A stretch of 34,614 nt of DNA from Lachnospiraceae bacterium (GTDB lineage: Bacteria > Bacillota > Clostridia > Lachnospirales > Lachnospiraceae). The stretch is from the NCBI GenBank assembly GCA_030524705.1, contig JAUNGD010000037.1:1-34614 (forward strand), given 5' to 3'. The translations under genes and the position numbers were made by a program. This document shows, one piece after another, positions 16,021 through 34,116 of the stretch (its first letter is position 1; each line of letters begins with the position of its first letter). Under the pieces are notes generated by a model that made no database searches, was not told the origin of the DNA, and worked only from the letters and a program-made list of their open reading frames with translations.

Positions 16021-16728
16021 TTATTTACTGTTTTTTATCTGCCCGTAATAAGCATTCGGACCAAATTTTCTATTATAATGCTTATCCATCATTTCCTGTG
16101 GTACTGGCCTCACATCGCTGTTAATCATCTCACAATTAAATGCCATCTGAGCAACCTTCTCAAGTACAACAGCATTATGTACTGCAGCTTCTGGATCCTT
16201 CCCCCAGGTAAAGGGCCCGTGATTTTTACAGAGAACCGCTGGTGTTGCAGCATAATCCTGTTTTCTCCGCTCAAACTCCTCGGCAATCAGAATACCAGTA
16301 TTTTTTTCATATGCTTCATCAATTTCTTTTTGTGTCAGATTTCTAACACAGGGAATCTCCCCATATATATAATCAGCATGTGTTGTTCCATAGCAAGGTA
16401 TATTTCTTCCTGATTGCGCCCAGCTTGTAGCCCATGTCGAATGGGTATGTACGATTCCTCCTATTTTCGGAAAACGATTGTAGAGGATAGCATGGGTTGC
16501 CGTATCTGATGAAGGATTATAATCTCCTTCCACTGTATTTCCATTTAAATCCACTACTACCATATTGTCGGAAGACAATTCATTATATGGAACCCCACTG
16601 GGTTTGATAACAAACAAGCCCTTTTCCCGGTCAATCCCACTTACATTCCCCCACGTAAATGTAACCAGATTATACTCTGGCAGCAGCATATTTGCCTCAT
16701 AAACCTCTTTTTTCAATTTTTCCAACAT
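16021..16728 (-). CDS. araD: L-ribulose-5-phosphate 4-epimerase (AraD/UlaF/SgbE family)
   Basis: A 235-residue class II aldolase/adducin-fold enzyme of standard length. Zinc ligands H94 and H96 ([14 protein letters not shown]) and H170 (NHGPFTWG) are present. TWGNVSG, KPSGV and SSDTATH form the phosphate and sugar pocket, D119 is in TTHADY, and the C-terminal NAYYGQ tyrosine is conserved. It interconverts L-ribulose-5-P and D-xylulose-5-P, giving the operon an exit into the pentose phosphate pathway. Sequence alone does not separate AraD from UlaF or SgbE. It is the last gene of the minus-strand operon, with AAAGGAAC upstream of the ATG. Confidence 0.92.
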
Positions 16729-16806
16729 ATTTTTCTGTTCCTTTCTTTTATTTTTTAAGCCCGCTCCTCATCTATAAAGCAGTAGGCTCTTTCCCTTTAA
16801 AATCAG

Positions 16807-17367
16807 CTATTCCAGATTTGCATGCCTGGAAAATTCACCCTCAAGCACTATATTCCGCTTCTCTGCCAGCGGAATAACAATCGTATCTCCCAATACCAGC
16901 AGACACTGCTCAAACAAGCTCCCGGATGGTAAAATCGTACGTTTCATATTCTCATAATGAACCTTTGGAGTAAATGCAGGTATTTCAACTAATACATCTG
17001 CCATCTTCCCCAGAGAAGACTCCTTCTTTATCGTAAACACGGCGATATTGCCTCCCAGCTTTTTTGCCTTATTTACGACATTGATTAATCCGCTGGTTTC
17101 GCCGGAACCGGAGCCGACAATCAGCAGATCGCCCTTTTCAAAGGCCGGAGTCGTCGTGTCTCCTACAACATAGCTTTCAAATCCCAAATGCATCAACCGC
17201 ATCGCAATTCCCCGCATCATGAGAAGAGAACGCCCCGCCCCGCTGACATATACCTTTTTTGCTTTCAAAATTTCACCAACTAACAAATCCACCTGGTTTT
17301 CATCTATCTTTTGAAGTGTTTCTGCAATTTCTCTTGCAGCCGCCGCCGCTACATTTTTTATCTCCAT
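16807..17367 (-). CDS. hxlB: 6-phospho-3-hexuloisomerase (PHI)
   Basis: A 186-residue SIS-domain protein. The family run is clear: VYVSGAGRSLLMMRGIAMRL, then MHLGF, VVGDTTTPAFEKGDLLIVGS and GSGETSGL, the GSLFEQ glutamate segment, and the diagnostic C-terminal RHANLE. PHI interconverts D-arabino-3-hexulose-6-P and fructose-6-P, the second step of the ribulose monophosphate cycle. The first enzyme, HxlA, is encoded 5 kb upstream in the same operon. ATG 17367 is chosen for its AGGAGGAAAT site. Its place between an FGGY kinase and araD is unusual; in RuMP operons hxlA and hxlB are normally adjacent. Confidence 0.9.
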   Translation of the reverse strand: MEIKNVAAAAAREIAETLQKIDENQVDLLVGEILKAKKVYVSGAGRSLLMMRGIAMRLMHLGFESYVVGDTTTPAFEKGDLLIVGSGSGETSGLINVVNKAKKLGGNIAVFTIKKESSLGKMADVLVEIPAFTPKVHYENMKRTILPSGSLFEQCLLVLGDTIVIPLAEKRNIVLEGEFSRHANLE

Positions 17368-17399
17368 ATTTCCTCCTGCTGTACACACAGCTTTGTCCG

Positions 17400-18992
17400 T
17401 CAAGACAGACTATCTACTGCTTCTCTTTCTATTTGAATTCCGCTTCTGTATTTTTCGATATATCTTTCAAATCCTGCCATCTCTTTTTCATCTGGATTCA
17501 TAACAATCTTACTGCTGCCTGAAAATACCTTTTCCAAGTAAGCCTGAAGCTCTCCTTTCTGTTCTTCCAGCATATAAGCTGCAAGCAGAGCCATTCCCCA
17601 GGCGCCTCCCTCTCCGGCATGCTCCATCACTGATACAGGAGCGCCAAGAGCTGCCGCCAAAAAACGCTGCGCCACGCCTGTCGTCTTAAATAATCCGCCG
17701 TGCCCTGTCAACGTATCTATTCTTACATTTTCCTGTTTGAGAAGATCCACCCCAACCTTCAGCATCGACATAGAGGAAAAAAGATGTGCCCGCATAAAAT
17801 TGGCCAGCGTAAATTTACTATCCGGTGTTCTGACGAACAAAGGCCTTCCTTCTGGTACATGAATAATCGTTTCACCCGAATAAAATCCGTAAGCCAATAA
17901 ACCTCCGCAATCCTCATCGCCCTCCAGCGCCTGACGATACAAAATTTCAAAAAGTCTGTCCTTATCGCATGAAATACCCAATCCTTCTGCAAATTCTCCA
18001 AACAGCGAAACCCAGGCATTGAGATCAGAGGTTCCGTTATTTACATGAATATTGGCCGCCAAATGTCCCTCTGGGGTCGTTACCAGGTCAATTTCCGGAT
18101 ATACCTTACTCAGCTCCTCTTCTAAAATGATGATTGCAAAAACAGACGTCCCCGCTGAAACGTTACCTGTCCGTCTTGCAACGCTGTTAGTAGCAACCAT
18201 GCCAGTTTCCGCATCCCCTTCAGGCGGGCAGACGGGAACGCCTGCTTCCAGTTTTCCTGTTGGATCTAAAAGCTCTGCTCCTTCCTTTGTCAAAGCTCCT
18301 GCAGCTTCTCCCGCCAGCATGATTTCAGGAAGAATATCCTTCAGTCTCCAATTATAATTTTTTTCTGCAATAAGCTGTTCAAATGCGCGAATCATTCCTT
18401 CATCATAATTCTTTGTTTTAATATCAATTGGAAACATACCGGAAGCATCCCCGATTCCCAGTACCTTTTTTCCTGTCAGTTTCCAATGTACATAGCCAGC
18501 CAGAGTCGTCATAAAAGCAATATCTTTTACGTGCTCCTCATCATTTAGAATTGCCTGATACAGATGTGCAATGCTCCACCTCTGCGGAATATTATATTCA
18601 AATAATTTTGTCAGCTCCTCGGAGGCTCTTTTGGTGATGCTGTTGCGCCACGTCCGAAACGGCACCAGTAATTCATTCCATTGGTCAAATACCAGATATC
18701 CATGCATCATTGCACTGAATCCTATCGTCCCGATTTTTGTCAGAACAATATCATATTTCTGCTTCACCTGTTCCGCCATATCACGATAGCTGCTCTGCAG
18801 TCCTGTCCATACTTCATCCAATGAATAGGTCCATATCCCCTGTTCCAGGCGATTTTCCCACTCATAGTTTCCAGAAGCAATCACTGTATATGCTTCATCA
18901 ATCAGAACAGCTTTTATGCGGGTAGAGCCAAATTCGATTCCCAACGAGGTTTTTCCGTTTTTTATTGCCTCTCTTGCATAATCTATCTCCAT
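17400..18992 (-). CDS. FGGY carbohydrate kinase of the long Clostridia/Bacteroides type (possible L-ribulokinase)
   Basis: A 530-residue sugar kinase. The N-terminal ATPase fold begins [32 protein letters not shown] replaces the GQMHG motif of xylulokinases, followed by [42 protein letters not shown] and the C-terminal [15 protein letters not shown] with [14 protein letters not shown]. Related proteins occur beside araD in arabinose loci of gut bacteria, so L-ribulose phosphorylation is plausible given araD nearby; no araA is in the window. The ribosome binding site GGGAGGAAACAG is good. It is the largest and most divergent of four FGGY kinases in this operon. Confidence 0.85.
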
Positions 18993-19010
18993 CTGTTTCC
19001 TCCCTCTCTG

Positions 19011-19919
19011 TCATTTATTAAAATTACCGCTGGTATTACGGGTAATACATTCCACCAGATTATTCATACATGAGGTCATGGTTACCTCCCTGTTCCAGGC
19101 TACGTATGTGTCTCTGGAGCTGAGCGGCGGATCCATAGGGATTTCCGTAAGCTGAGAATATCTGTAATCCATCTGTGCAATTTCTTTTGTAACGATTGCC
19201 AGGCCAAATCCCTCAAGCGCCAGATTCAGCATGATCGCTGTACTTCCCACCTCCATATATGCTTTGAACTGTACCCCCATTTTCTCCAGCTTTTCATCAA
19301 ACAGCTTTCGCGTATGCGTATTGGAACAATGCATGATAATGGGAAATTCAGCTAATGCGCTCCACTTCAGAGGAGCGACCTTGGCCAGTGCGGCGTATTT
19401 TTCTCCACTTACGACAACCTCATGCATCTCTGTAATTTTTACAAATTCCAGCCTGTCATCATCCACACATTTATTCAATAATCCAATATTAATATCCTTT
19501 TTCAGCAGACCCTTTATTGTCTGTTCGGAATTCGAATAAATAAGCTCTCTTATCAGCACGTTCGGATACATATTGCAGTATTCCCGGATAACAGGTATCA
19601 TAAAATATATAAAAAGATCATCTCCTCCGCCTATAGAAATTTCTCCATAGTCCGAATAACTGATGCGTGAAATCTGATTCACCGTTTTTTCCATAATGTC
19701 CATGCTCTGTTTCACACCATCAAACAGGATTTTTCCTGCCTGCGTCAGCTCGATTCCTTTTTGGTTGCGATACAGCAGCTGGCATCCGATCTTTTCCTCC
19801 AGCTTCGCCATCGCTTTGCTGAGCGCAGGCTGAGAAATATGAATTTCCTCAGCAGCTTTTGTAATATTTTTTGCCAAAGCAATACGGTAAAAATAATACT
19901 CATTAATTTCAAAAAACAT
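19011..19919 (-). CDS. LysR-family transcriptional regulator
   Basis: A 302-residue LTTR. The winged helix-turn-helix spans residues 1-60, with NITKAAEEIHISQPALSKAM in the recognition region. It is followed by a periplasmic-binding-type effector domain (about 90-295) starting at GEISIGGGDD. An AGGAGGAGAAAT site precedes the ATG. Unlike most LysR regulators it is not divergent from its targets but lies inside the sugar operon, 37 bp after xylB and 18 bp before the next kinase, so it is probably co-transcribed and autoregulated. It is the only transcription factor in the operon and the natural candidate to respond to the transported sugar or a phosphorylated intermediate. Confidence 0.93.
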   Translation of the reverse strand: MFFEINEYYFYRIALAKNITKAAEEIHISQPALSKAMAKLEEKIGCQLLYRNQKGIELTQAGKILFDGVKQSMDIMEKTVNQISRISYSDYGEISIGGGDDLFIYFMIPVIREYCNMYPNVLIRELIYSNSEQTIKGLLKKDINIGLLNKCVDDDRLEFVKITEMHEVVVSGEKYAALAKVAPLKWSALAEFPIIMHCSNTHTRKLFDEKLEKMGVQFKAYMEVGSTAIMLNLALEGFGLAIVTKEIAQMDYRYSQLTEIPMDPPLSSRDTYVAWNREVTMTSCMNNLVECITRNTSGNFNK

Positions 19920-19956
19920 ATTTCTCCTCCTGTATCAGTCCCCTTCTGTCCGTCAT

Positions 19957-21480
19957 TCACGTCTTCGCAAGAGCGGAAAAATCTGTTTTTAAATGTTCAT
20001 AAATCCTGTCATAAATCTGATGATATTGCCTGTATTTTGCGGCTTCCGTTTCATTCCATTGAATCGTTTTATCCTCTTTGATGAACCGGTCACATGCAGA
20101 AGGAATATCCGAAAAGGCTCCTGCTCCTACACCTGCGAGAATCGCGGCTCCGTATGCAGGCCCTTCTTCCTGCTGCATTGTGTGTATGTCACATCGGTAT
20201 AAATCTGCCAGAATTTTCTGCCATACGGGGCTTCTGCTTCCGCCGCCGCAGACCCTCATATCCGTTATGCTCACACCTAATTCCTTCAATATATTGTTGC
20301 AGTCGGCCAGACAGTATGCCACGCCCTCCATGATCGCCCGCAGTAAATGCCCCTGGCTATGTATGTTGCTCAGGCCGACAAATGCTCCTCTATAATCAGG
20401 CTCCATATGCGGTGTACGTTCCCCCAGTAAAAATGGCAAAAAAATCAGTTTATCACTGCCAATGGGAATTTCCTTTGTCATCTGATTTATTACCTCATGG
20501 ATATTGCGGCCCTCCTTCAATGCCTGAAGAATAAAATCCTGACAGAACTTTTCCTTAAACCACTCAAGAGACAGTCCGGCAGACTGAGGCCCGCCCATGG
20601 TATGATAGCATCCCGGCACGGCGCAGCAGCATAAATGCAGACCGCCCTCCGGTACTGCAGCGTAATGATCCAAATGGGAATATACGACCGCAGAGGTCCC
20701 TATCGTTGTAAACGCCTGTCCCTCTCTTACAACACCTGTTCCTATCGCAGCGGCCGCATTGTCGCTTGCTCCTGCTACCACAACTGTATTTTCTGACAGC
20801 CCAAGCTCCTCTGCAATCTCCGGCAAAAGAGTTCCCGTAACCTCCTGAGATTCATATACGTTTCCCAGCAATTCTCTGGGAATATTCAACAGCTCCAGCA
20901 CCGTATCTGACCAGCATCTGTTTTTTACATCCAAAAGCTGCATTCCTGTTGCGTCAGATACATCTGTCGCAAAAGCCCCTGTCAGGACATAACGAATATA
21001 GTCTTTCGGAAGAAGTATCTTTTTGCACTTTGCATAAACCTCCGGCCGGTTTTCTCTCACCCACATGATTTTAGCTGCTGTCCAGCCCGCCAGAGGCGGA
21101 TTAGATGTAATATCCAGCCACTTCTCCAAAGACATCATTTCTTTCATTTTTTGAGCCTGTCTGCCGCTTCTCTGATCACACCATATGATGGATCTTCCCA
21201 TAGGCTGGCAGGATTCATCCAGCATTACAAGGCCATGCATCTGTCCGGTCAAGCCAATCCCCGCAACATCCTCCTTGTTCACCTTTGATGCTTCAACAAT
21301 TTTCTTCACAGCGGACAACACCGCTTTTTTCCAATCAAGAGGATCCTGCTCAGCCCATCCGTTTGCCGGTTCATACATGGGATAACCTGCTGATGCCTGG
21401 GCTTTTATATTTCCTGTCTCATCAATTAAAACGGCCTTTGTCGCACTCGTTCCTATGTCAACACCTATTAAATATGTCAT
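19957..21480 (-). CDS. xylB: Xylulokinase (FGGY family)
   Basis: A 507-residue kinase of typical XylB length. YLIGVDIGTSATKAVLID is the N-terminal phosphate loop, TGQMHGLVMLD and IIWCDQRSGRQ are XylB hallmarks, ASDNAAAAIGTG includes the catalytic aspartate, and CGGGSRSPVWQKILADL is the C-terminal nucleotide site. It should phosphorylate D-xylulose at O5 to xylulose-5-P, though XylB-like kinases also accept other ketoses. ATG 21480 has AAAGGAG; an ATG 21 bp upstream lies inside rpe and lacks a site. It follows rpe by 4 bp and so is likely coupled. Confidence 0.9.
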   Translation of the reverse strand: MTYLIGVDIGTSATKAVLIDETGNIKAQASAGYPMYEPANGWAEQDPLDWKKAVLSAVKKIVEASKVNKEDVAGIGLTGQMHGLVMLDESCQPMGRSIIWCDQRSGRQAQKMKEMMSLEKWLDITSNPPLAGWTAAKIMWVRENRPEVYAKCKKILLPKDYIRYVLTGAFATDVSDATGMQLLDVKNRCWSDTVLELLNIPRELLGNVYESQEVTGTLLPEIAEELGLSENTVVVAGASDNAAAAIGTGVVREGQAFTTIGTSAVVYSHLDHYAAVPEGGLHLCCCAVPGCYHTMGGPQSAGLSLEWFKEKFCQDFILQALKEGRNIHEVINQMTKEIPIGSDKLIFLPFLLGERTPHMEPDYRGAFVGLSNIHSQGHLLRAIMEGVAYCLADCNNILKELGVSITDMRVCGGGSRSPVWQKILADLYRCDIHTMQQEEGPAYGAAILAGVGAGAFSDIPSACDRFIKEDKTIQWNETEAAKYRQYHQIYDRIYEHLKTDFSALAKT

Positions 21481-21484
21481 TGCT

Positions 21485-22153
21485 TCACTCCTTTCCTGCA
21501 TATTCTGCCTGACGGCGCAGTTCCCGGATATTTACCTTCATATCGCCTTCAAAAACTGCTTTCCCGGATACGATAATATTTGCTCCGGCCGAAACTACGG
21601 ATCTGATATTCCAAGCCGAAATTCCTCCGTCCACCTCTATTGGTTTTTCCTGCCCATATATTTTCATCTTCCTTTTAAGCTCAGCAATTCTTTCAACAGA
21701 TTCAGGTATAAAGCTCTGTCCCTCCAGTCCCGGTTCCACCGTCATCAGTTGAATCACATCTGCAAGATGAAGAAGCTGCCCGTCCAGAACTTCCAGGCTT
21801 GTACCTGGTTTTATCGCAATTCCAGCCTTCATTCCCAGAGATTTTATTTTAGTCAGAGTTGTTTTTACATCCTTGCACGCTTCATAATGAACTGTCAGCA
21901 CATCTGCCCCCGCAAGCTTCATTTTTTCTGTAAAACGTATTGGTTCATCCACCATCATATGTACATCAAAGACAAGATCGGATGATGAACGAATACTTTG
22001 AATCATTTTCATTCCGAAGGATAAATTAGGAACAAAGCTTCCATCCATCACATCGAGATGTATATAGTCAGCTCCGCTTTCCTTCAATTTCTTTAACTGT
22101 TCTCCCAGGCAATTATAATCAGCCTCCAAAAGAGAAGGTGCAATCTTATACAT
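21485..22153 (-). CDS. rpe: Ribulose-phosphate 3-epimerase
   Basis: A 222-residue TIM barrel. KIAPSLLEAD, HLDVMDGSFVPNLSFG, DVHMMV, LTVHYEA and IEVDGGIS carry the conserved Ser, His, Asp, His and Asp residues of Rpe. The phosphate loop reads MTVEPGLEGQSF where MxVxPGFxGQ is common, a small departure. It interconverts ribulose-5-P and xylulose-5-P; AlsE-type allulose-6-P epimerases belong to the same fold and cannot be fully excluded. ATG 22153 gives standard length and lies after GGGGG with 11 nt spacing; a GTG at 22165 overlapping the hxlA stop is the alternative. It sits directly downstream of hxlA, whose substrate ribulose-5-P it supplies or uses. Confidence 0.9.
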   Translation of the reverse strand: MYKIAPSLLEADYNCLGEQLKKLKESGADYIHLDVMDGSFVPNLSFGMKMIQSIRSSSDLVFDVHMMVDEPIRFTEKMKLAGADVLTVHYEACKDVKTTLTKIKSLGMKAGIAIKPGTSLEVLDGQLLHLADVIQLMTVEPGLEGQSFIPESVERIAELKRKMKIYGQEKPIEVDGGISAWNIRSVVSAGANIIVSGKAVFEGDMKVNIRELRRQAEYAGKE

Positions 22154-22161
22154 AGAGCCGT

Positions 22162-22791
22162 TCACCCCCTGATAGCTCTATACAGCTTTTTTGTTTCTGC
22201 AACAGGATCTGCAGCTTTGAAGATTCCGCCTCCTACAATAATTATGTCCGGTTTCTGCTCTGTATATAAATCTAATGACTGGTATGTGATCCCTCCTGCA
22301 ACTGCCACGGCAGCTTTTCTACAGTATTTTCTTATTTCCTTTAAATCCTCCAGGGGCGTACGTCCCATAGCCTGTTCATCCACCCCCGTATGAACTGCAA
22401 TCACATCCACGCCTATCTCCTCCAGCTCTTCTACCTTGGATTTCATCTCCTGTACGCAAATCATATCCGCTACTATTTTCTTTCCGTTTTCTTTTGCTGC
22501 CCTGACACTGTCTGCCAGTGTAGAGTACTCCGTAACGGCCAACACTGTAACGTAATCAGCGCCCTTTTTAAACAACTCGTCTGCCTCGTAATACCCCGCA
22601 TCCATAATCTTGGAATCACAGAGAATTTCCACATTCCTTGATATTTTCCGAATATCCTCTATGATACCCACGCCATACTGCAAAACGTAGGGCGTCCCCA
22701 GCTCAATAATATCCACATATTCCTGAACCTCCTGAAACAGCTCCAACAGCTTATCGGGCGGCAGCGTATCCATAGCTATCTGCAATTTCAT
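22162..22791 (-). CDS. hxlA: 3-hexulose-6-phosphate synthase (HPS)
   Basis: A 209-residue TIM-barrel enzyme of the orotidine decarboxylase superfamily. D8, E30 (VDIIELGTP), D59, K61 and D64 (CDSKIMDAG), and H134 (VHTGVDEQ) fit the active-site pattern. VADMICVQ, EQAMGRTPLEDL and QKPDIIIVGGGI are HPS-like and differ from 3-keto-L-gulonate-6-P decarboxylases such as UlaD. HPS condenses formaldehyde with ribulose-5-P, or runs in reverse to release them. It is flanked by the RpiB-like gene and rpe, with its partner hxlB downstream in the operon. The ribosome binding site AGGAGG overlaps the end of the preceding gene. Confidence 0.88.
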   Translation of the reverse strand: MKLQIAMDTLPPDKLLELFQEVQEYVDIIELGTPYVLQYGVGIIEDIRKISRNVEILCDSKIMDAGYYEADELFKKGADYVTVLAVTEYSTLADSVRAAKENGKKIVADMICVQEMKSKVEELEEIGVDVIAVHTGVDEQAMGRTPLEDLKEIRKYCRKAAVAVAGGITYQSLDLYTEQKPDIIIVGGGIFKAADPVAETKKLYRAIRG

Positions 22792-22797: not shown

Positions 22798-23316
22798 TCA
22801 ATCCTCCTGTTCGTATCCCATACCCCACGCGATAAAATCCGGTTTTTCTAATTGTCTTGCTTCTATCTCCTGGAAAAATTTTTTATTTTTTACAGATGAT
22901 TCCCTCGTCCAGCTAAAAGGTTCATCATACCACGCATCCAATACCTTCTTTGCTGCTTCTGAGGCAAGTATTCTGGCGCCAAGACAAAGAATCTGAGCAT
23001 CCGCACTCTTTCTTGCACGCTCCGCAGAATAGCATTCACTCACATTTGCCGCACGGATACCCCAAAAACAATTCGCCATATGGCAAAATCCAATCCCTGT
23101 GCCGCAGATCAGAAGCGCCAGACGACATTCATCTTTCTGTATTGCTTCACATACTCTGGTTGTAGTGTCCGCGGGAGAATTGTAGGATTCTTCAAACGTC
23201 GGGTTGACATCCAATACTATCTCCGCATTCTTTTCTGTTATCAGATATTCCTTTAATATCTCCTTCAGCTCATATCCTACCGGATCACATCCCAATGCAA
23301 TTTTCACCTTTCCCAT
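22798..23316 (-). CDS. RpiB/LacAB-family sugar-phosphate isomerase with altered active site
   Basis: A 172-residue protein. CGTGIG (71-76) keeps the catalytic-base cysteine C71 of RpiB, and ANCFWGIRAA and ILCLGARI match the family. Two key positions differ: GCDPVG has proline (P12) where RpiB has the substrate-stacking histidine, and ARKSADAQ has S104-A105 in place of the His-Asn implicated in ring opening. The C-terminal tail is about 20 residues longer than in RpiB. An open-chain or shorter sugar phosphate, or another pentulose, may be the substrate (inference). The ribosome binding site AAAGGAGAATAAGGA is strong, and the gene is packed between an FGGY kinase and hxlA. Confidence 0.82.
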   Translation of the reverse strand: MGKVKIALGCDPVGYELKEILKEYLITEKNAEIVLDVNPTFEESYNSPADTTTRVCEAIQKDECRLALLICGTGIGFCHMANCFWGIRAANVSECYSAERARKSADAQILCLGARILASEAAKKVLDAWYDEPFSWTRESSVKNKKFFQEIEARQLEKPDFIAWGMGYEQED

Positions 23317-23333: not shown

Positions 23334-24839
23334 TCAGTGAATCCGCTTCCTGTTTCTTTGAAACAATTCATAATTTGTCTGATATAAATCCTTGTACACA
23401 GCATAGCTTTCCTGGTATCGCTCTTGATTTTCCGTCCTCGGATAGACGATTTTGTCCTTCAGCCGGACCATCTCTCTGCATGCCTCCCGGTAATTTTTAT
23501 ATTGCCCCGTGCCGACCGCCGCTGTGATCGCTGCTCCGAGACACGACTGCTCATGATTGTCTGCAATGTAAACCGGTTTGTCGAAAATATCCGCTTCCAT
23601 CTGCAAAAAAACATCGCTTCTGGCTCCGCCGCCGGAAGCAATCATCGTTTCAGTTGTAATCCCGCTCTCCTCAAAAATCATAAAAGTAGTCTTCATTCCC
23701 AGAATGATTCCCTCCATCACACTTCTGGTCATATGAGCGCGGCCATGAGACAACGTCAGCCCAAAGAAAATCCCCTGTGCATCCGGGTCGTTTACGGGGG
23801 AACGCGAGCCACTTAAATAGGGAAGAAAAACAAGGCCGTTGCTTCCGGGCTCCGCCGTATCCGCCAAAGCTGACATTTCATCATAGGAATTCATATGAAG
23901 GATGTTATTTTTCAGCCATTTTAAAGCCGCTCCGCCGCAGAGATTCGCCCCCATCCAAAACCACATATTCTTTTTTGCATGACAAAATGTATTTACCCGA
24001 AATAATCTGTCAAAAACCGGCCGCTGCGTCGCACAATTCACCGAACAGGAGGTTCCTATATTGGCGATCCAGGGACTTTCCTCACTGATAACGCCATTCC
24101 CGATCTGCTGCATAATAGAATCACCGCCGCCATAAATAACAGGAGTGCCTTCCCGCAGCCCTGTTTCTTCCGCACATTTCACATTTACAGCTCCTGCGGT
24201 TCCGTCTGACTCATAGCAATCCGGAAACAGGCTGTGATCCATACCGAATTGATCCGCCAGCTCCCACGCCCATTCTCCCCGCCTTGTGTCAAACATCAAG
24301 GTAGCGGAGGCGTCGGAATAGTCCGTCGCAATCTCTCCGCACATCTGATACCGAATATAATCCTTCGGCAGCATGACCTTATAAATCTTCTCGTAATTCC
24401 ATTTTTCGTTTTCCTTCACCCAAAGCAACGACGTTAACAGAAAACCAGAAGACAAGTCATTTAATGTTATTTCTTTATATCTTTTTTCCCCGACCACTTC
24501 ATATACGTCTAAGGTCTGCCTGGAGGCTCTCTGATCACACCATATAATCGCATTGCGGATCAGTTCTCCATTCCGGTCTACCATAACCAATCCATGCATC
24601 TGTCCTGAAAAACTGATTCCCTGAATTTCTTCTGTCCTTTGTCCGAGTCCAGCCGTAATTTCACAGATAGTTTCCCTGGTTTTTTCCCATATCAGTTTCA
24701 TATCCTGCTCTGCAAACAGTGCATTCGGCTTACTTATATCATATTCCCGATGCGAGACAGCAACCGTCCGTCCTGTCTCATCCGTCAGCAAAGTCTTGAC
24801 ACTGGAAGTCCCAATGTCTATTCCCATAAAAAGAGCCAT
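23334..24839 (-). CDS. FGGY carbohydrate kinase (xylulokinase-like)
   Basis: A 501-residue kinase. FMGIDIGTSSVKTLLTD begins the ATPase fold; SGQMHGLVMVD and IIWCDQRASRQT are XylB-like. GGGDSIMQQIGNG carries the catalytic Asp region, and ASGGGARSDVFLQMEAD the C-terminal site. It is related to but clearly distinct from xylB at 19957-21480, with differences in the central NIGTSCSVNC and MGANLCGGAALKW segments that line the sugar pocket. The ATG at 24839 follows AGGTGGGGTGG. It is separated from the bicupin gene by 87 bp holding two hairpins. Probable ketose kinase; substrate unknown. Confidence 0.85.
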   Translation of the reverse strand: MALFMGIDIGTSSVKTLLTDETGRTVAVSHREYDISKPNALFAEQDMKLIWEKTRETICEITAGLGQRTEEIQGISFSGQMHGLVMVDRNGELIRNAIIWCDQRASRQTLDVYEVVGEKRYKEITLNDLSSGFLLTSLLWVKENEKWNYEKIYKVMLPKDYIRYQMCGEIATDYSDASATLMFDTRRGEWAWELADQFGMDHSLFPDCYESDGTAGAVNVKCAEETGLREGTPVIYGGGDSIMQQIGNGVISEESPWIANIGTSCSVNCATQRPVFDRLFRVNTFCHAKKNMWFWMGANLCGGAALKWLKNNILHMNSYDEMSALADTAEPGSNGLVFLPYLSGSRSPVNDPDAQGIFFGLTLSHGRAHMTRSVMEGIILGMKTTFMIFEESGITTETMIASGGGARSDVFLQMEADIFDKPVYIADNHEQSCLGAAITAAVGTGQYKNYREACREMVRLKDKIVYPRTENQERYQESYAVYKDLYQTNYELFQRNRKRIH

Positions 24840-24862
24840 TTTTCCACCCCACCTAAGAGCAA

Positions 24863-26718: not shown

Positions 26719-26811
26719 AATTAAGCAAATCCTCCTGTAGTTAAAATTTATATTTTTTCGTATAGCGTCGTAAAGCATCAAATTACAGAGCGCCCGAAGA
26801 GATATTAAATA

Positions 26812-28296
26812 CTATAAATTCAAATAAGACTTTTTTACTATATTACTGAAAACTCTGTGTCTCCTTAAAACATGAAGCGCATCTTTCTCCGGTGTATAGC
26901 AACACGCTGTTTTGGAAAACTGTCTGCTGGCTTCACTCAAATCCTTATAACACCCAAATTGCACTGCACACAACATTGCCAAACCGTGAATCCCCGCCTC
27001 TGTATTTTCAAGCGTATATATCCTTTTCCCTGTAATATCTGCTTTTATCTGCATATACGCAGAGGATCGTGACACCCCGCCTGACGCAGTAATTTTATTT
27101 ATTCTGACTCCGCAGTCGTCGGCCAGATCAAACAACTCTGCTGTTTCGCAGCTAAGGCCCTCCAATATTGCCCTGTACAAATGATAAATATCAGCGGTCG
27201 TATCCATTCCAATAAAAGAACCCATGGGTACGTCTATGTCTGGAAAATACGTATTGGACAGATACGGTAAAAAAATAATTCCTGATGAATCCCCTGGACA
27301 ATTCTGGTTCAAATGATCGTATATACTGCATCCCTCCCTCTTACAGATCTGACGGAGCCCGGAAGCAAAATTATTTACAAACCATTTAATACAGTTTCCA
27401 TGCATCAGTCTGCTGAGCAGAGAAATATACATTCCTTTTTGTATAAAAGGCTCTATCTGCAGACCGGCATTTTTCAATTGCTCTGTCTGCTCATTGCCAA
27501 CCAGAAGATTTAATGCCTCAGTAGATCCTTCTCCTAATACGGCATCTCCGGGGACTACTGCGCCGCCCCCAATCGCCGCACTGATCTGATCATGGCATCC
27601 AACCAGAATTTTTACTTCCGCGGGGAGATTCAGTTCCTCACTGACCTCCCTGCGGATGTTCCCCAAAAACGTGCCTGCACTGGTCACCTGCGGAAACAAA
27701 TTCAGATCAATTCCATATGCATCCGCAAGCTTGTCTGACCAGCGGTAAGTATTGATGTCATAAAACAACGTATTGGAGGCTGTCGAATAATCGTACGCTG
27801 CCTCTCCAGACAGCATATATGCGACAAAGCTGTCAACAAACAGAATCTTTCTGGCCTTCTCAAACACTTCCGGTCTCGTTGCCTTCCAGTAGTTGTATTG
27901 ATTCACCGTCGCTATACGCGGCTGGGTCTTCCCTGTTATTTCATACAGCTCCTTTTCCGGGATGCGTCGTTCCAGACATTTCCATACCTCCGTATTACGG
28001 CTGTCTATGTACGTCATCCCGTCATCCATAAGCAGACGGTCTCCTTCGTCCAGGAATGCGATCGTCTCCCCCAGGGAAGACACCGCCGCCGCTTTCACTT
28101 CAGAAGCTGCAGAAGATATTTCCTTCAGAACATCTCTTACACTGTTCCAGATTACAGACAGGCTTAAACAAGCCCATCCATTACGGTTTTTTAAAATTTT
28201 GTACTCCCGCTGGGCACTCTTTTTGACCATACCCTCCTGACTCACCACAGATGCCTTACATCCCGAAGTTCCGACATCAATACCTATAAAATCCAT
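26812..28296 (-). CDS. FGGY carbohydrate kinase of unassigned subfamily
   Basis: A 494-residue kinase. FIGIDVGTSGCKASVVS is the N-terminal phosphate loop. SSLGETIAFLD stands where xylulokinases have GQMHG, and MTYIDSRN replaces IIWCDQR. GCHDQISAAIGGG carries the catalytic Asp region, and ASGGVSRSSAYMQIKADI the C-terminal motif. The sugar-binding positions therefore differ from the other three kinases here. It is the first kinase after the transporter genes and 18 bp downstream of the binding-protein gene, so it is the best candidate for the initial phosphorylation of the imported sugar (inference). The site GGGGAATAT precedes the ATG. Confidence 0.85.
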   Translation of the reverse strand: MDFIGIDVGTSGCKASVVSQEGMVKKSAQREYKILKNRNGWACLSLSVIWNSVRDVLKEISSAASEVKAAAVSSLGETIAFLDEGDRLLMDDGMTYIDSRNTEVWKCLERRIPEKELYEITGKTQPRIATVNQYNYWKATRPEVFEKARKILFVDSFVAYMLSGEAAYDYSTASNTLFYDINTYRWSDKLADAYGIDLNLFPQVTSAGTFLGNIRREVSEELNLPAEVKILVGCHDQISAAIGGGAVVPGDAVLGEGSTEALNLLVGNEQTEQLKNAGLQIEPFIQKGMYISLLSRLMHGNCIKWFVNNFASGLRQICKREGCSIYDHLNQNCPGDSSGIIFLPYLSNTYFPDIDVPMGSFIGMDTTADIYHLYRAILEGLSCETAELFDLADDCGVRINKITASGGVSRSSAYMQIKADITGKRIYTLENTEAGIHGLAMLCAVQFGCYKDLSEASRQFSKTACCYTPEKDALHVLRRHRVFSNIVKKSYLNL

Positions 28297-28313: not shown

Positions 28314-29321
28314 CTACCAGCTGTAGTTATCAATATTGCTGGAATCCAGAGCGATCAGTCCAAAGTAAATATTTTCTCCTGTGACAGTCGCTTCTACATT
28401 TTCCAGACCCTCTACTGCAAATGTATCGCCATCTGCATATTCTGTACCGTTCAGCATTTCATTTGCCGCATAAACAGCCGTATATGCCAGATATGCCGGC
28501 TCAGTTACGTATGCACTCTTAACTGTGCCGTCTTCAATATAAGGACGAATAACATCCGGCAGAGTCAATCCCGTAATGTACACGCTCTCCTCAATCGTTC
28601 CCTGCTCTACAGCTTCTTTTACTGCAGCCGCTGCAGAATGCGGTTCATATCCAGAGATACCGATGATAGCCTGAACATCGGGATTTGCAAGCAACAGGTT
28701 CTCAGCATTCTGTTTTGCTACCTCTGTATCGTCATCAGACCACGTTGTTGCAACAATCTCCATATCCGGGTAGTTCTCCGCAATTTCATCTTCAATACCT
28801 GCGAGACGATCCTGCTGATTACCTGCGCTGATGCCGCCGCCCATAACAGCAATTTTTGCATCCTCTGCCACATCCTTGGCAACATCCTGCACAAACATAC
28901 GCCCGCACTCATAATCGCTCGCTGAATTTACATAGAAGGAACGAGCACTCTCTGCGCTGTCTGAATCATACGTAAGAACAAGAATTCCCTGTTCTACAGC
29001 CTTATCAATAGAGGCCTTGCATCCGGCCGCATCATTTGTAGCAATGATGATTGCATCCGGCTGTGCAACAATCGCATCCTCAAGCATATTGATCTGCTCT
29101 GTCGGATCAGCATTCGCCGGTCCGCTGATGATTACCTCAATCCCCAGATCCTTTCCGGCATCCTCCGCACCTGTACATGAGTATACATTCCACGCACCGG
29201 CAACCTCTTTCGGCATGAAATAAATCGTCTTGTCTCCACTCTCCTCGGCGGAAACCGGTAAACACATTCCTGCTGCCATAAGTCCTGCAAGAGCAATTGA
29301 AGCAATTTTTCTGATTTTCAT
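28314..29321 (-). CDS. Sugar ABC transporter substrate-binding protein (RbsB/LsrB-like)
   Basis: A 335-residue periplasmic-binding-protein type I (COG1879-like). The signal peptide (1-25) is MKIRK, a hydrophobic core, then LPVSA before EES. The only cysteine near the cleavage region (C20, in AAGMC) lacks a proper lipobox because methionine is at -1, so lipid anchoring is uncertain. The mature part begins TIYFMPKEVAGAWN and has the alternating lobes of monosaccharide binding proteins (DAIIIATNDAAGCKASIDKA, VQAIIGISGYEPHSAAA). AAAGGAGGATTACT gives strong initiation. It belongs to the ABC importer encoded at 28314-32858. Confidence 0.92.
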   Translation of the reverse strand: MKIRKIASIALAGLMAAGMCLPVSAEESGDKTIYFMPKEVAGAWNVYSCTGAEDAGKDLGIEVIISGPANADPTEQINMLEDAIVAQPDAIIIATNDAAGCKASIDKAVEQGILVLTYDSDSAESARSFYVNSASDYECGRMFVQDVAKDVAEDAKIAVMGGGISAGNQQDRLAGIEDEIAENYPDMEIVATTWSDDDTEVAKQNAENLLLANPDVQAIIGISGYEPHSAAAAVKEAVEQGTIEESVYITGLTLPDVIRPYIEDGTVKSAYVTEPAYLAYTAVYAANEMLNGTEYADGDTFAVEGLENVEATVTGENIYFGLIALDSSNIDNYSW

Positions 29322-29416: not shown

Positions 29417-30388
29417 TTATCCCTTTTCTCTATGGTTAAATTCCAGGTTTCCTATAATGACTGCGAGCAAAATGATAGCTCCCAGAATTGCCGATTGATA
29501 GTACGCGCTGACATGAACAATATTCATACCACTCTTGAGGTATCCGATAACCAGGATACCAATAAAAGTACCAAACAGCGTACCTTTACCACCGTTAATA
29601 CTGATGCCTCCCAGCAAACACATAGTAATCGCATCAAATTCGTATCCGTCTCCCAGCGCAGCCTCGATACCCTGCATTCTGGAAAGGATTACAATGCCTG
29701 CCAGACCGGAAATAAATCCATTTAACGTAAACAGCCCCATTCTGTATTTCTTTACCTTAATACCCGAAAATTCTGCTGCACTCGCATTATTTCCGATGGC
29801 CCGAATATCAAGTCCAAACCGGGTGTATTTCATTCCAAAAGCAAATATGGCAAAAACTACAATGACAAGAATAAACGAATACGGAATAACTCCAAACAGA
29901 GTACTGTTTCCAAACCAAAAGAAAGATTCATCGGGAAAACCGCGCATCGGTCCGCCTTTACGGAACACATAACACAACCCTCTGAAAGCTGTCATTGTAC
30001 CAAGTGTTACGATTACCGGCTGCATATTCAAAACCGCAATCATAAAACCATTCATCAGACCGATAAGCGTTGCCACTGCCAGCGCTAAAATCACGGCTGC
30101 CGGAATCGGCACAGAATTCTGCATCAAAGCCCCTGCCGTAAATGCGGAAAAACACATGACAGAGCCGACAGAAAGATCAATATCACCAGTCAGCATCACA
30201 AGGGACATAGACGCAGCAATCAATCCGATCTCAGCAAACTTCGACGTGATGTTTGTAAAATTTGCCATTGACGCATAGACAGCAGACTGTGTAGAAAACC
30301 CAATCAGCATTAGTATCAGGATTCCGATCAGGATCACATATCTTCTAAGATTGTAGTTTGAAAGAATTTTTTTCAACTGTATCTTCAT
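29417..30388 (-). CDS. Sugar ABC transporter permease (RbsC-like), second subunit
   Basis: A 323-residue integral membrane protein of the BPD_transp_2 (RbsC/AraH/LsrCD) family with about eight to ten hydrophobic segments. Family signatures are LTGDIDLSVGS near 66-76, NGFMIAVLNMQPVIVTLGTM, the cytoplasmic coupling segment AIGNNASAAEFSGIKV near 200, and LLGGISINGGKGTLFGT. ATG 30388 overlaps the preceding permease stop as ATGA, so the two are translationally coupled and likely form a heterodimeric channel. Confidence 0.93.
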   Translation of the reverse strand: MKIQLKKILSNYNLRRYVILIGILILMLIGFSTQSAVYASMANFTNITSKFAEIGLIAASMSLVMLTGDIDLSVGSVMCFSAFTAGALMQNSVPIPAAVILALAVATLIGLMNGFMIAVLNMQPVIVTLGTMTAFRGLCYVFRKGGPMRGFPDESFFWFGNSTLFGVIPYSFILVIVVFAIFAFGMKYTRFGLDIRAIGNNASAAEFSGIKVKKYRMGLFTLNGFISGLAGIVILSRMQGIEAALGDGYEFDAITMCLLGGISINGGKGTLFGTFIGILVIGYLKSGMNIVHVSAYYQSAILGAIILLAVIIGNLEFNHREKG

Positions 30389-31356
30389 TTATTTCTGTAC
30401 ACCCCCAAACCTTTTCTTTTGAAGACTGCTGAATTCTGCAAAAACTGAACGAGCATGGATACCAGAATCAGGATTCCGGTAAGCGCTGTTACCCAATAGT
30501 CCGTAGAACGAGCCAGAATCATACCATTATTCAAAATCGCCATCGTAAAAGCTCCAAAAACGATACCCAGAACTCTGCCGTATCCTCCGCTCATGCTGGC
30601 TCCTCCCAACAGCACGATCGCTAAAAGAGTATTGATCGTACCTCCTCCGATTTTGGAAGCAAGAATATTCTGATAAATGCTGGAATACAGAATTGCCGCT
30701 ACTGCTACCAGAATACCGGAAAAAACATAGGCGCTCCTTTTCGTCCTTCCAACATGTATTCCCGCCTGTGTCGCCGCATCACTGTTTCCTCCCACCGCAT
30801 AAATCCTTCGCCCCAATCTCGTCTTTGAAAGTATAACCGCCACAAGAACTGCCATAGCAATAAAACAGAGAAACGGAACCGGAATGATGCCGAATAATTG
30901 TTTTGATCCCAGAGCGATCATGAAAGGCTTCGTAATAATATAGGTCTCTACACTGAACATTAACGCAATTCCCCGTATCAGATTCTGAGCCGCAAGAGTT
31001 ACGATCAGATCCGGCAGATTAATCTTAGTCACCAAAAATCCTTTCAAATATCCGACAATTGCTCCCCCGATCACTACAATAAGAAAGATCACAATAAACG
31101 GGAGCTGCTTCGATTCAAGAAATCCAGTCAGCACACACAGTAAAGAAAGAGTAGAACCGATAGAAATATCAATGCCGCCAGTCAATACGATCAAAAACAA
31201 TGCAACACCCAAAATACCGTTAATAGATACCTGCTTCATAATCGTTTTTATATTACTGAAGGCGATAAACCTCGGTGTAATGACTGTAAAAAGGATGATC
31301 AACAGCAACATGGAAATCAAAGGAGCCAGATCCTGCGTTCTTTTCTTATTCTTCAC
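30385..31356 (-). CDS. Sugar ABC transporter permease (RbsC-like), first subunit
   Basis: A 323-residue membrane protein of the same BPD_transp_2 family as its neighbour but clearly non-identical: LTGGIDISIGSTLSLLCVLT, the GYLKGFLVTKINLPDLIVTL segment, coupling sequence AVGGNSDAATQAGIHV and LLGGASMSGGYGR. The GTG at 31356 has AAGGAG 8 nt upstream; a GTG at 31365 overlapping the ATPase stop is the alternative. Together with the other permease, the ATPase and the binding protein it makes a complete high-affinity monosaccharide importer. Confidence 0.93.
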   Translation of the reverse strand: MKNKKRTQDLAPLISMLLLIILFTVITPRFIAFSNIKTIMKQVSINGILGVALFLIVLTGGIDISIGSTLSLLCVLTGFLESKQLPFIVIFLIVVIGGAIVGYLKGFLVTKINLPDLIVTLAAQNLIRGIALMFSVETYIITKPFMIALGSKQLFGIIPVPFLCFIAMAVLVAVILSKTRLGRRIYAVGGNSDAATQAGIHVGRTKRSAYVFSGILVAVAAILYSSIYQNILASKIGGGTINTLLAIVLLGGASMSGGYGRVLGIVFGAFTMAILNNGMILARSTDYWVTALTGILILVSMLVQFLQNSAVFKRKGLGVYRNK

Positions 31357-31361
31357 TTCTC

Positions 31362-32858
31362 TCACTCCTTTCCGCCGGATGCCAGTTTAAGAAGGCGATC
31401 CTGTTCCAAACCCTCTGTCTTTAAAGCCGCAGCAATCCTGCCCTTGTGCATGATCAAAATGCGATCTGTCATCCCCAGTACTTCCGGTGCCTCCGATGAG
31501 ATTAAAATAATTCCCAAATCTTCGGTTTTTACCAGTTGATCAATCAAATTGTAAATCTCTGCTTTGGCGCCGACATCGACACCTCTTGTCGGTTCATTTA
31601 GGATCAGGACCTTCGGATGAATTGACAGCCATTTCGACAAAACAACCTTCTGCTGGTTTCCTCCCGAGAGAAGATTTACATGAGTATTACGGTCAACCGC
31701 TTTAATTGCAAGCGTCTTCATATATTCATCACAGATTTCCTTGTTCCTTGGCCAGTCAATGAGCATTCCCTTTCTGTGCAGATCACAACCCACCATGGAA
31801 ATATTCTCAAACACGGACATTCCCTTTACAAAGCCGTCTTTCTTTCTGTTGAGAGGAACATAGGCCACCTTATTTTGCACCATACTGTCTATGTTCCCTT
31901 TTTTAATCGTATTTCCATCGAGAATTATTTCACCTTTATCTGCTTTTAAGTATCCGAATAAAGTCTCCGCCAATTCTAAAGTACCGGAACCTGCCAGCCC
32001 GTAAATTCCAAGTACCTCTGATTTCATCAGCTCAAAATCAACATCCTCAAAATTTTTTCCGCTGAGTCCTGAAACCTTGAGCAAAACCTCGTCATTCTGT
32101 GTCGGCGTATGAACATAATACTCATCGAGTTCACGTCCAACCATTTTATTGATCATGACTTCAACCGGCGTATCCTTTACTTCTACAACATCTACCACTG
32201 TTCCATTCCGCAGTATCGTTACCCTGTTGCAAATATTTTCAATCTCAACCATCTTATGTGAAACATATATAATCGTGATTCCCTGACTATTCAGCTTCCT
32301 GATAAAATTAAAAAATATTTCGACCTCATTTTCCGGCAAAGCTGCAGTGGGCTCGTCCATGATAATCAGCTCTGCATTCATAGACATTGCCTTTGCAATC
32401 TCTACCATCTGCTGTTCATGAATACTGAGATCACTTCCCATAGCAGTTACATCAATATCCACACCCAGTCTGTTAAGAACCTGTCTTGCATCCTCCAGCA
32501 TTCTCTTTTTCTGAACCATTCCAAATTTACTCACATAATCCCGTCGGTTCAAAAAAATGTTTTCTGCCACGGTCATATTCGGAAAAATATTCAATTCCTG
32601 ATGCATCAGTGCAATCCCATCGTCTGCCGCCTCATCAATGGAGGTATAAGAAACCTCTCTGCCTTTAAACATGATCGTACCAGACGTCCGGGTGTACAAC
32701 CCTGTCAAGATTTTTAAAAGAGTGGACTTGCCGGCACCATTTTCACCTATTAAGCCCATAATCTCGCCTTTTTTCACATCAAGACATGCATGATCCAAAA
32801 CCTTGGCACCGGGAAATACTTTGTCAATATCTTTCATACGAAGAATATATTCATCCAA
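31362..32858 (-). CDS. Sugar ABC transporter ATPase, duplicated (RbsA/MglA-like)
   Basis: A 498-residue protein with two ABC cassettes. Cassette 1 has Walker A GENGAGKST (38-46), a signature region LSIHEQQMVEIAKA and Walker B LIIMDEPTAALP. Cassette 2 has the degenerate Walker A GLAGSGTLELAE typical of RbsA proteins, LLSGGNQQKVVLSKWL and VLILNEPTRGVDVGAK. It energises the two RbsC-like permeases. A GGAAGGGTAGAAGAG site precedes the ATG, and 52 bp separate it from the first gene of the operon. Confidence 0.95.
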   Translation of the reverse strand: MDEYILRMKDIDKVFPGAKVLDHACLDVKKGEIMGLIGENGAGKSTLLKILTGLYTRTSGTIMFKGREVSYTSIDEAADDGIALMHQELNIFPNMTVAENIFLNRRDYVSKFGMVQKKRMLEDARQVLNRLGVDIDVTAMGSDLSIHEQQMVEIAKAMSMNAELIIMDEPTAALPENEVEIFFNFIRKLNSQGITIIYVSHKMVEIENICNRVTILRNGTVVDVVEVKDTPVEVMINKMVGRELDEYYVHTPTQNDEVLLKVSGLSGKNFEDVDFELMKSEVLGIYGLAGSGTLELAETLFGYLKADKGEIILDGNTIKKGNIDSMVQNKVAYVPLNRKKDGFVKGMSVFENISMVGCDLHRKGMLIDWPRNKEICDEYMKTLAIKAVDRNTHVNLLSGGNQQKVVLSKWLSIHPKVLILNEPTRGVDVGAKAEIYNLIDQLVKTEDLGIILISSEAPEVLGMTDRILIMHKGRIAAALKTEGLEQDRLLKLASGGKE

Positions 32859-32910
32859 TCTCTTCTACCCTTCCTTTCAATGCCTTGTAAAATATATCTC
32901 ATTACTCTTT

Positions 32911-34116
32911 TTATACCTCAGGCGCCTCCGGCATTCCGCAGTTATTGCAAAAATGCTTCAGCATTACCATATCTTCACAGGAATTATTCACGATCAGGAC
33001 ACCTTCATTTGCCCGTTTGTGTGACACGAAAAATTCATCCTTCGTCATCTGATTTATTCGTATTACATTTGGCGATTCACATTCCAGGTCTCCGAACATT
33101 CCATGACCGGACAGAAGAATACAGCCGTATGCAGCCTTATCCTTAATCAGTGCAGATTTACCAGGTCTTATTGTCAATTCCTTTGCACCAAAATACGGAT
33201 TTCCATAAGTAATCCATTTAGATACATACTCCTCCGTCTCGCTTTCAATGATTGGACGACGGAAATACTTTTTACGATAATAAGGATCTGTATTTATCTC
33301 CCAGTCAATCAGGCTCATAGTATATTCATACTCATCTTCCGCTTCCTCCGGTACAAGATTGTTCATCTCATCATGTGAGAATGCCGGATAATGGTTATCC
33401 GTATAATTCTCAAATACCGCATAGGATTCACTCATCCACTGCGGCTCATACGTACACCATGCACCACAGCCATGGAGAACACCCGCCGGAGTATACCAGC
33501 CTGTTCCAAGCTCCAGGCGATATGCTCTGGAAAGCTCTACAATTTTATTCTCCTTCGTATCAAAATCTCTGAGCCTTTCCAGTACTTCCTCCTTCGTTAC
33601 AGATGGATCAATCCCCAGATAAGTAATAACATTCGCATTTGCGGCAGACATATTCATCTGCGGCGGATAGTAGTACGCTTCCGGCTTCATGACTGCTCCC
33701 GGCTTACAGCATGCCGCGGCTTCTGTCGGATGAACATGAAAGAAAGAGGTCGTCGCATAATCATAAAATTTTGAGAACATCGGCCACCGTCCGTATTTAT
33801 TCCAAAGTTCTTCTCCAATCAGCTCTTCCTTTAATTCCTCTACTACATCTTTAAAAAAAATACGTTCTCCATCGCAGTCTACATATTGCATACCGAGGTT
33901 TTCCGGTGCATTCTTCACTCCGTGTTCTACCGGAGCCGTTGCACAAAACCAACGCTCCTCAATCATTCCCAATTCATTTCCGTAATAAGTATAATCGTCC
34001 GGATGCAGCCGAAGCCTCCTTCCCGGCATCCATGAATCTCTGGGAATAAAATCCGGGACCATACGAAGAATTCCATTGTTTTTTTTCATTGAATTTTCCA
34101 ATACCTTATTTGCCAT
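32911..34116 (-). CDS. Cupin-fold putative sugar isomerase (mannose-6-phosphate isomerase-like)
   Basis: A 401-residue protein. FFHVHPTEAAACCKPGA followed by MKPEAYYYPPQ recalls the metal site of type I phosphomannose isomerases (His, His, Glu), and later TPAGVLHGCGAWC supplies the second metal histidine. A C-terminal cupin-like region (about 305-400) ends HFCNNCGMPE. The overall similarity to characterised PMIs seems low, so the substrate is open; aldose-ketose isomerisation of the imported sugar is the natural guess. ATG 34116 is chosen for GGGAGGG 6 nt upstream. It is the promoter-proximal gene, ahead of the transporter. Confidence 0.7.
   Translation of the reverse strand: MANKVLENSMKKNNGILRMVPDFIPRDSWMPGRRLRLHPDDYTYYGNELGMIEERWFCATAPVEHGVKNAPENLGMQYVDCDGERIFFKDVVEELKEELIGEELWNKYGRWPMFSKFYDYATTSFFHVHPTEAAACCKPGAVMKPEAYYYPPQMNMSAANANVITYLGIDPSVTKEEVLERLRDFDTKENKIVELSRAYRLELGTGWYTPAGVLHGCGAWCTYEPQWMSESYAVFENYTDNHYPAFSHDEMNNLVPEEAEDEYEYTMSLIDWEINTDPYYRKKYFRRPIIESETEEYVSKWITYGNPYFGAKELTIRPGKSALIKDKAAYGCILLSGHGMFGDLECESPNVIRINQMTKDEFFVSHKRANEGVLIVNNSCEDMVMLKHFCNNCGMPEAPEV

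Follow-up and report, generated by a model that had tools for sequence, protein, structure and literature searches.

We analyzed a stretch of 34,614 nucleotides from a Lachnospiraceae bacterium (hereafter the window), which forms one whole contig of a draft genome of 3.87 Mb (145 contigs, 88.3% complete), and found on its minus strand an operon of 17 genes in which HxlA and HxlB, enzymes of the ribulose monophosphate (RuMP) pathway, stand among a sugar importer, four FGGY kinases and two cupin proteins. By gene content the operon looks composite, consisting of a core shared with one relative and a pentulose-phosphate module to which hxlA and hxlB appear to belong. We consider a composite rare-sugar catabolic operon the best explanation of this arrangement, with a probability of roughly one half.

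Gene content of the operon and of its closest relative

The operon spans 34131 to 16021, and its longest open reading frames (ORFs) are separated by −17 to 95 bases; its 5′ end lies at 34131, or at 34116 if translation starts at an ATG five codons in. In order of transcription, with "module" marking the genes of the proposed addition, it comprises:

32911..34131, minus strand: cupin406, putative aldose-ketose isomerase with a phosphomannose isomerase (PMI) fold, first gene; likely ATG at 34116
31362..32858, minus strand: RbsA-type ATPase of a sugar ABC (ATP-binding cassette) importer; closest model RbsA at 537.5 bits, below the cut-off of 745
30385..31365, minus strand: sugar ABC permease 1 (BPD_transp_2)
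29417..30388, minus strand: sugar ABC permease 2 (BPD_transp_2)
28314..29321, minus strand: sugar-binding protein, closest to the RhaS and LsrB types, below every curated NCBIfam cut-off
26812..28296, minus strand: FGGY4, core sugar kinase
25861..26781, minus strand: class II ketose-(bis)phosphate aldolase of Fba/GatY type (PF01116); likely start 26718 (ribosome-binding site by eye)
24927..25844, minus strand: cupin305, two-domain cupin (Cupin_2)
23334..24920, minus strand: FGGY3, XylB-type pentulose kinase, module; TIGR01312 473.4 bits (cut-off 380.25), likely start 24839
22798..23316, minus strand: RpiB-like isomerase (PF02502), module; Ser at the place of E. coli His99
22162..22791, minus strand: HxlA, 3-hexulose-6-phosphate synthase, module; TIGR03128 241.5 bits (cut-off 200)
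21485..22165, minus strand: Rpe, ribulose-phosphate 3-epimerase, module; TIGR01163 241 bits (cut-off 212.6)
19957..21501, minus strand: FGGY2, XylB-type pentulose kinase, module; TIGR01312 510.6 bits (cut-off 380.25), likely start 21480
19011..19919, minus strand: LysR-family regulator, core
17400..18992, minus strand: FGGY1, putative AraK-type L-ribulokinase, module
16807..17403, minus strand: HxlB, 6-phospho-3-hexuloisomerase, module; TIGR03127 216.5 bits (cut-off 160), likely start 17367
16021..16728, minus strand: AraD, L-ribulose-5-phosphate 4-epimerase, module, last gene; NF006047 382.3 bits (cut-off 257)

A preliminary description of this DNA had placed all the genes that it named in one minus-strand operon, and its list, position and strand were correct; the RbsABC-type importer that it reported is present, with two permeases rather than one. 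Two families that go by the name class II aldolase occur in the operon, the Fba/GatY type (PF01116) and AraD (PF00596). The best solved relatives of the binding protein are LsrB and rhamnose-binding proteins, at no more than 130 bits, and neither solved relatives nor curated NCBIfam models assign it to any sugar.

A scan of genome contigs with cupin305, which may leave out records very near the window, returned one close locus, L034. Its operon contains counterparts of cupin406 (92% identical), the ATPase (82%), the two permeases, the binding protein, FGGY4 (60%), the aldolase (87%) and cupin305 (89%), with the LysR gene (68%) directly after cupin305 and unrelated genes thereafter. FGGY1, FGGY2, FGGY3, the RpiB-like gene, HxlA, Rpe, HxlB and AraD are absent from this stretch of 20.9 kb, and a search of the L034 genome, whose completeness is not given, returned no match for HxlA. 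In the window these eight genes lie on both sides of LysR. Because L034 has the core genes without hxlA, the core seems independent of formaldehyde fixation, unless L034 lost HxlA or uses another route, and we infer that the two loci differ by gain in the window and not by loss from L034. Chimeric assembly of the operon was judged unlikely, since core genes (cupin305 and LysR, as in L034) stand on both sides of the added block; the G+C content of the operon genes, which stays between 0.40 and 0.47, also counts against it.

In the composite reading, where we infer all substrates as well as the direction in which HxlA/HxlB work and where the formaldehyde originates, the promoter-side genes and LysR would be the core, and the module would be an addition of this lineage, placed to either side of LysR. 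The core importer would bring in a rare sugar of the aldose type, probably a pentose, which cupin406, as a PMI-fold metalloenzyme, would convert to a ketose; FGGY4 would phosphorylate the ketose, and cupin305 together with the Fba-type aldolase would turn the phosphorylated sugar into triose phosphate and an aldehyde. In the module, the AraK-type kinase with AraD and the two XylB-type kinases would convert pentuloses to D-xylulose-5-phosphate, Rpe would yield D-ribulose-5-phosphate, and HxlA/HxlB would link ribulose-5-phosphate and formaldehyde with fructose-6-phosphate. We think that the formaldehyde comes from outside the core sugar. A literature search found no paper joining these operon genes.

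HxlA, HxlB and the pentulose-phosphate genes

Both RuMP enzymes named in the preliminary description bear out their identities: they exceed their curated cut-offs (family-match E-values of 6.6e-72 for HxlA and 2.4e-64 for HxlB), while the best decarboxylase model for HxlA reaches only 106 bits. Judged by its residues, the window HxlA is of the synthase type and not of the decarboxylase type. At UlaD positions 112, 139 and 169, which we take to separate 3-keto-L-gulonate-6-phosphate decarboxylase from synthase activity, the window protein has Asp/Val/Ala and the 3-hexulose-6-phosphate synthase (HPS) of M. gastri has Asp/Leu/Ala, whereas UlaD and SgbH (sequences from the K-12 genome) have Glu/Arg/Thr; a literature search gave no paper on a decarboxylase-to-synthase residue switch. 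The catalytic set Asp62/Lys64/Asp67 is retained. HxlA scores 196 bits against its best solved match, 3f4w, deposited as a putative hexulose-6-phosphate synthase, and 137 bits against the M. gastri synthase, compared with at most 73 bits against 3-keto-L-gulonate-6-phosphate decarboxylases. In the HxlA tree, its place is resolved no further than a group of 11 rows (support 86/94). The HxlA of locus L066 was checked separately, outside the residue alignment and the tree. The pair thus resembles known RuMP enzymes in family scores and HPS-type active-site residues, but differs in arrangement: hxlA and hxlB are mostly side by side at the other loci that we read, whereas in the window they are four genes apart (Rpe, FGGY2, LysR and FGGY1 intervene) and inside a sugar importer operon.

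HxlA has matches above 100 bits in 13 of 299 sampled family genomes, the source genome included, and in three of 47 genus genomes (the source genome, G320 and G342). The source genome has a second, adjacent hxlA-hxlB pair (L058:9357-10572, contig C49) outside sugar importer operons, surrounded by ROK-like, PfkB-like and thiamine-type genes as judged by eye. We read the neighborhoods of all 14 family HxlA matches above 100 bits outside the source genome, which come from 12 genomes. Six of them (L062, L063, L065, L066, L071 and L072) have an RbsC-type permease on the same strand no more than 8 kb from HxlA, compared with 1.6 expected if permeases are as dense as in these 12 genomes overall; the corresponding P(≥6) of 0.0024 overstates the significance, as L062, L063 and L066 represent one gene order and the L065 HxlA clusters in the tree with the L062 and L063 proteins. 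The preliminary description had made its proposal depend on linkage of hxlA/hxlB to the kinases or importer in related genomes. Linkage to this particular importer was observed at no other locus, and the association holds in the broader form of these RbsC-type permeases. Proximity of hxlAB to sugar importers therefore recurs in the family, and the hxlAB genes of the window look like an addition to the core.

Rpe lies on the same strand within 10 kb of HxlA at seven of 18 loci, a raw count given without a chance expectation; the 18 are the 14 family loci, the two of the source genome, L107 and L108, and the seven are the window, L062, L063, L065, L066, L071 and L108. We take HxlA and Rpe as a recurring pair, which would connect xylulose-5-phosphate to fructose-6-phosphate. 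In Lachnospiraceae that are probably fermenters, formaldehyde-handling enzymes and Rpe are neighbors in operons for sugar import; the RuMP connection of ribulose-5-phosphate with fructose-6-phosphate may accordingly serve sugar use there, beyond methylotrophy or detoxification.

Several of these neighborhoods have features of their own. L062, L063 and L066, from three genera, share a conserved importer operon with HxlA, three HxlB-like SIS genes and Rpe, and those of L062 and L063 additionally contain an MtnA-family gene, RpiB and an iron-type alcohol dehydrogenase. An iron-type alcohol dehydrogenase is also found near hxlA at L064 and at L067, the latter with DhaK/DhaL as well, making a formaldehyde-methanol link possible at these two loci. 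At L070:7933-10118, in what resembles by eye a CUT1-type importer operon, an FGGY kinase is directly followed by an HxlA homolog with Ser instead of Ala at the Thr169 position, which possibly has a different activity.

The kinases of the operon are of more than one kind. FGGY2 and FGGY3 pass the XylB model TIGR01312, with FGGY1 (117.8 bits) and FGGY4 (219.2 bits) below its cut-off. FGGY1 has relatives above 250 bits in 46 of 47 genus genomes, and in G152 a relative 66% identical to it directly follows an AraA-like ORF, recognized by its likeness to the AraA of the source genome; no araA was seen beside FGGY1 relatives in G300 or at the source-genome paralogs on contigs C13 and C27. The source-genome AraA lies on another contig, C35, and passes NF002795 (772 bits; cut-off 622). 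The AraK of C. acetobutylicum is described as a clostridial ribulokinase of an araA cluster (PMC3507653). FGGY1 is probably an AraK-type L-ribulokinase, an assignment made through the G152 relative. AraD passes NF006047 and fails the stricter TIGR00760 (369.9 bits; cut-off 389.1). Because the G152 relative follows an AraA-like ORF and an AraK/araA cluster provides a precedent, FGGY1 and AraD are best read as a putative route from L-ribulose through L-ribulose-5-phosphate to D-xylulose-5-phosphate. The likeness to the clostridial L-arabinose route AraA-AraK-AraD lies in a kinase near an AraA-linked one and in the presence of AraD; unlike that route, the window operon has no AraA. A passage from pentulose to fructose-6-phosphate, one of the options raised in the preliminary description, is supported by the synthase-type HxlA, by Rpe beside hxlA here and at six other loci, and by the AraA-linked relative of FGGY1.

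Cupin406, cupin305 and the RpiB-like protein

The enzyme families around hxlAB are all known, and cupin406 is the least expected element of the operon. The window protein has no Pfam or NCBIfam match, and the four weak Pfam matches found among 21 members of its family include none of the PMI families. Its predicted structure has the overall fold of type I phosphomannose isomerase (ManA), to which it is 13% identical. We examined the residues mutated in PMI entries. Counterparts of Lys86, His99, Lys132, Glu134, His255 and Glu264, to which we ascribe metal-binding or catalytic roles, are present in 22 of 22 cupin406 members when mapped by motif, and Gln97 is replaced by His. At the spacing of Arg274, taken from the motif and not from superposition, all 22 have Val, Met, Ile or Phe. 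The protein thus differs from ManA in lacking an Arg274 counterpart and a family match, and its neighbors suggest unphosphorylated sugars as substrates.

There are 24 cupin406 matches above 100 bits outside the source genome; 19 of them, with L034 and the window, make up the 21-row alignment. The best match (G138, L039) was checked separately, L049 (a short ORF) is in the tree only, and the matches in G214:C46, G104 and G057 are not in the alignment. The family occurs in two bacterial phyla (L034; an Arthrobacter plasmid), ketose kinases lie near cupin406 in two of its clades, and DhaK and/or DhaL homologs occur at seven of 19 loci. These PMI-fold proteins are promising candidates for isomerases of rare sugars that form a group of their own.

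The RpiB-like protein falls below the cut-offs of its two best models, the general RpiB model (116.6 bits; cut-off 135) and, second, the D-erythrulose-4-phosphate isomerase model NF051858 (111.5 bits; cut-off 240). It has Ser in the column of His99 of E. coli RpiB (1nn4), the ring-opening histidine. Ser also occupies this place in the RpiBs of four DhaK/DhaL-linked loci (L046, L047, L048 and L100), each with an epimerase-like gene, and, by eye, in that of an Arthrobacter tetritol-type cluster; the RpiBs of L062 and L063 keep His. As 3qd5, deposited as a putative ribose-5-phosphate isomerase, likewise has Ser, the residue is not diagnostic. The Ser fits an open-chain tetrulose phosphate as a possible substrate.

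Gene sets of a DhaK-type kinase, RpiB, triose-phosphate isomerase (TPI) or an epimerase, and an alcohol dehydrogenase serve tetritols. Window and tetritol/erythrulose operons (DhaK-type kinase, RpiB/DerI, TPI or epimerase, alcohol dehydrogenase) have in common that a cupin406 relative stands beside such genes on the Arthrobacter plasmid and in several family genomes, that the RpiB-like enzyme of the window is of similar residue type, and that DhaK/DhaL lie next door; the window differs in that its cupin406 is on its own branch and its operon contains no dehydrogenase. On the Arthrobacter plasmid (L122, 94-11167), the cupin406 relative beside the tetritol/erythrulose-type gene set is annotated as a hypothetical protein.

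Cupin305 has relatives above 100 bits in three of 392 order-sample genomes (the source genome, G155 and G385) and, at the same threshold, in four of 47 genus genomes (the source genome; G300, 73% identical; G341 and G342, 34–35%). At five of six loci other than the window (L034, L097, G155, G385 and L102), the Fba-type aldolase adjoins cupin305 or is no more than about 5 kb away, the sixth being on a 3.3-kb contig. Because the phosphorylating systems beside them differ (FGGY4 at L034 and in the window; by eye, PfkB-like at L097 and L102 and a fructose-type phosphotransferase system in G155), the constant element appears to be cupin305 with the aldolase.

On Agrobacterium and Rhizobium gallicum plasmids, the cupin305 homolog takes the form of two separate cupin genes, with identities of 38% and 44%. 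These are the two of 24 matching records that were read with annotation; a third record, from Ensifer, holds a weaker, unannotated relative in a different setting. The two plasmid loci (L119 and L120) carry, in this order, the aminoacyl-histidine dipeptidase PepD, two cupins, an RbsABC-type importer, AraD (49% identical to that of the window), ribulokinase and LysR. They share with the window the cupin305 homolog, importer, AraD, FGGY kinase and LysR; unlike the window, they have no annotated aldolase, no HxlA/HxlB and no cupin406, and their LysR, binding protein and kinase are only distant relatives. These operons, from an independent lineage, support a pentulose reading of cupin305.

Weight of the composite reading and its alternatives

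Several observations weigh against a composite rare-sugar operon. The division into core and addition is based on one relative, L034, where loss is possible, and the full gene set was found at no other locus. FGGY4 and the binding protein fall below every curated cut-off, dihydroxyacetone phosphate-type cleavage is ascribed to the aldolase through its family membership, and the rhizobial kinase has no match to FGGY1 or FGGY4 at 1e-4. A third cupin406 clade, of seven sequences, has no consistent kinase neighbor. HxlA and HxlB are split within the operon and need formaldehyde, for which no known source occurs among the 17 genes.

A possible, if less favored, explanation is a scavenging operon, with several pentose routes under one regulator that would let the cell use whichever of a range of pentoses or pentuloses is at hand. 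The diversity of the four kinases (one AraK-type, two XylB-type and FGGY4) against a single importer would suit it, as would the location of araA on another contig and of two FGGY1 paralogs on two others, and the position of added genes on either side of LysR; however, with a single importer and a compact transcription unit, induction by one sugar seems more likely.

We regard as rather doubtful a role in pentose supply or transaldolase bypass, in which HxlA/HxlB would run from fructose-6-phosphate to ribulose-5-phosphate and formaldehyde, or otherwise replace transaldolase, unrelated to the imported sugar. Transaldolase (PF00923) is undetected in the source genome and in 38 of 47 genus genomes, and all three genus HxlA carriers are among these 38. 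However, the other 35 have no HxlA above 100 bits, and chance could readily produce the three-of-three overlap too; the source genome has another hxlAB pair at a different locus, and the pair considered here is built into an importer operon. HxlAB as a general transaldolase substitute in the genus was rejected, given 38 of 47 genomes without detected transaldolase and only three with HxlA above 100 bits.

The preliminary description had suggested, as one option, an imported substrate that itself yields formaldehyde or a 3-hexulose. This option is not supported: L034 shares importer, cupins, FGGY4 and aldolase with the window but has no detected hxlA. Its most explicit form involves a branched C5 sugar such as D-apiose: cupin406, FGGY4 and retro-aldol cleavage by the Fba-type enzyme would give formaldehyde and a tetrulose phosphate, the RpiB-like protein would convert the latter to erythrose-4-phosphate, and HxlA/HxlB would capture the formaldehyde on ribulose-5-phosphate. 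This gives most operon genes a role, and the Ser-type RpiB of DhaK/DhaL-linked loci and the second-best, sub-threshold match to NF051858 agree with it. Against it, HxlA was not found in the genomes of L034, G155 and G300 (the latter two with a cupin305-aldolase pair), G385 has an HxlA (127 bits) but at a distance from its cupin305, and 3qd5 shares the Ser in the His99 column. Carriers of the core would be expected to need some means of dealing with formaldehyde if the core sugar released it; on this ground we hold a formaldehyde-yielding substrate to be improbable, and we give slightly less credence still to an anaerobe that degrades a branched pentose and refixes the formaldehyde on ribulose-5-phosphate from kinases and epimerases of the same operon, in effect a route of sugar breakdown that includes its own RuMP branch. 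The known apiose route uses the kinase AplK and the transketolases AptA and AptB (PMC13001218). That route was rejected for the window: no transketolase (AptAB) is among the 17 genes, and no close AplK was seen, AplK being missing from the 14 top matches listed for each FGGY kinase. The literature search gave no formaldehyde link for apiose.

Least probable of all is an ascorbate/diketogulonate-type pathway with HxlA as 3-keto-L-gulonate-6-phosphate decarboxylase, an FGGY kinase as LyxK and AraD as SgbE/UlaF, for although the neighbors resemble E. coli lyxK-sgbH-sgbU-sgbE and HxlA shares a superfamily with the decarboxylases, the residue set and model scores given above, the presence of HxlB and the lack of a UlaE/SgbU-type epimerase among the 17 genes contradict it. 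A UlaD/SgbH-type reading of HxlA was rejected on its residues.

Three further features flank the operon:

34206..34234, minus strand: promoter-like site 5′ of the operon, consensus match only
34358..34398, minus strand: terminator-like hairpin 5′ of the operon, 19 pairs followed by a T run, consensus match only
13869..15519, plus strand: DhaK and DhaL homologs (PF02733, PF02734), convergent neighbors

Terminator-like and promoter-like sites in the region occur near shuffled expectation (37 compared with 41.9, and 16 compared with 14.0). The DhaK/DhaL homologs are possibly part of the sugar system. Further away, at 3143-9942 on the minus strand, the window carries Tad/type II-like secretion genes, encoding an FHA protein with DUF6382, a prepilin peptidase, TadE-like and DUF5702 proteins and a weak T2SSF match.

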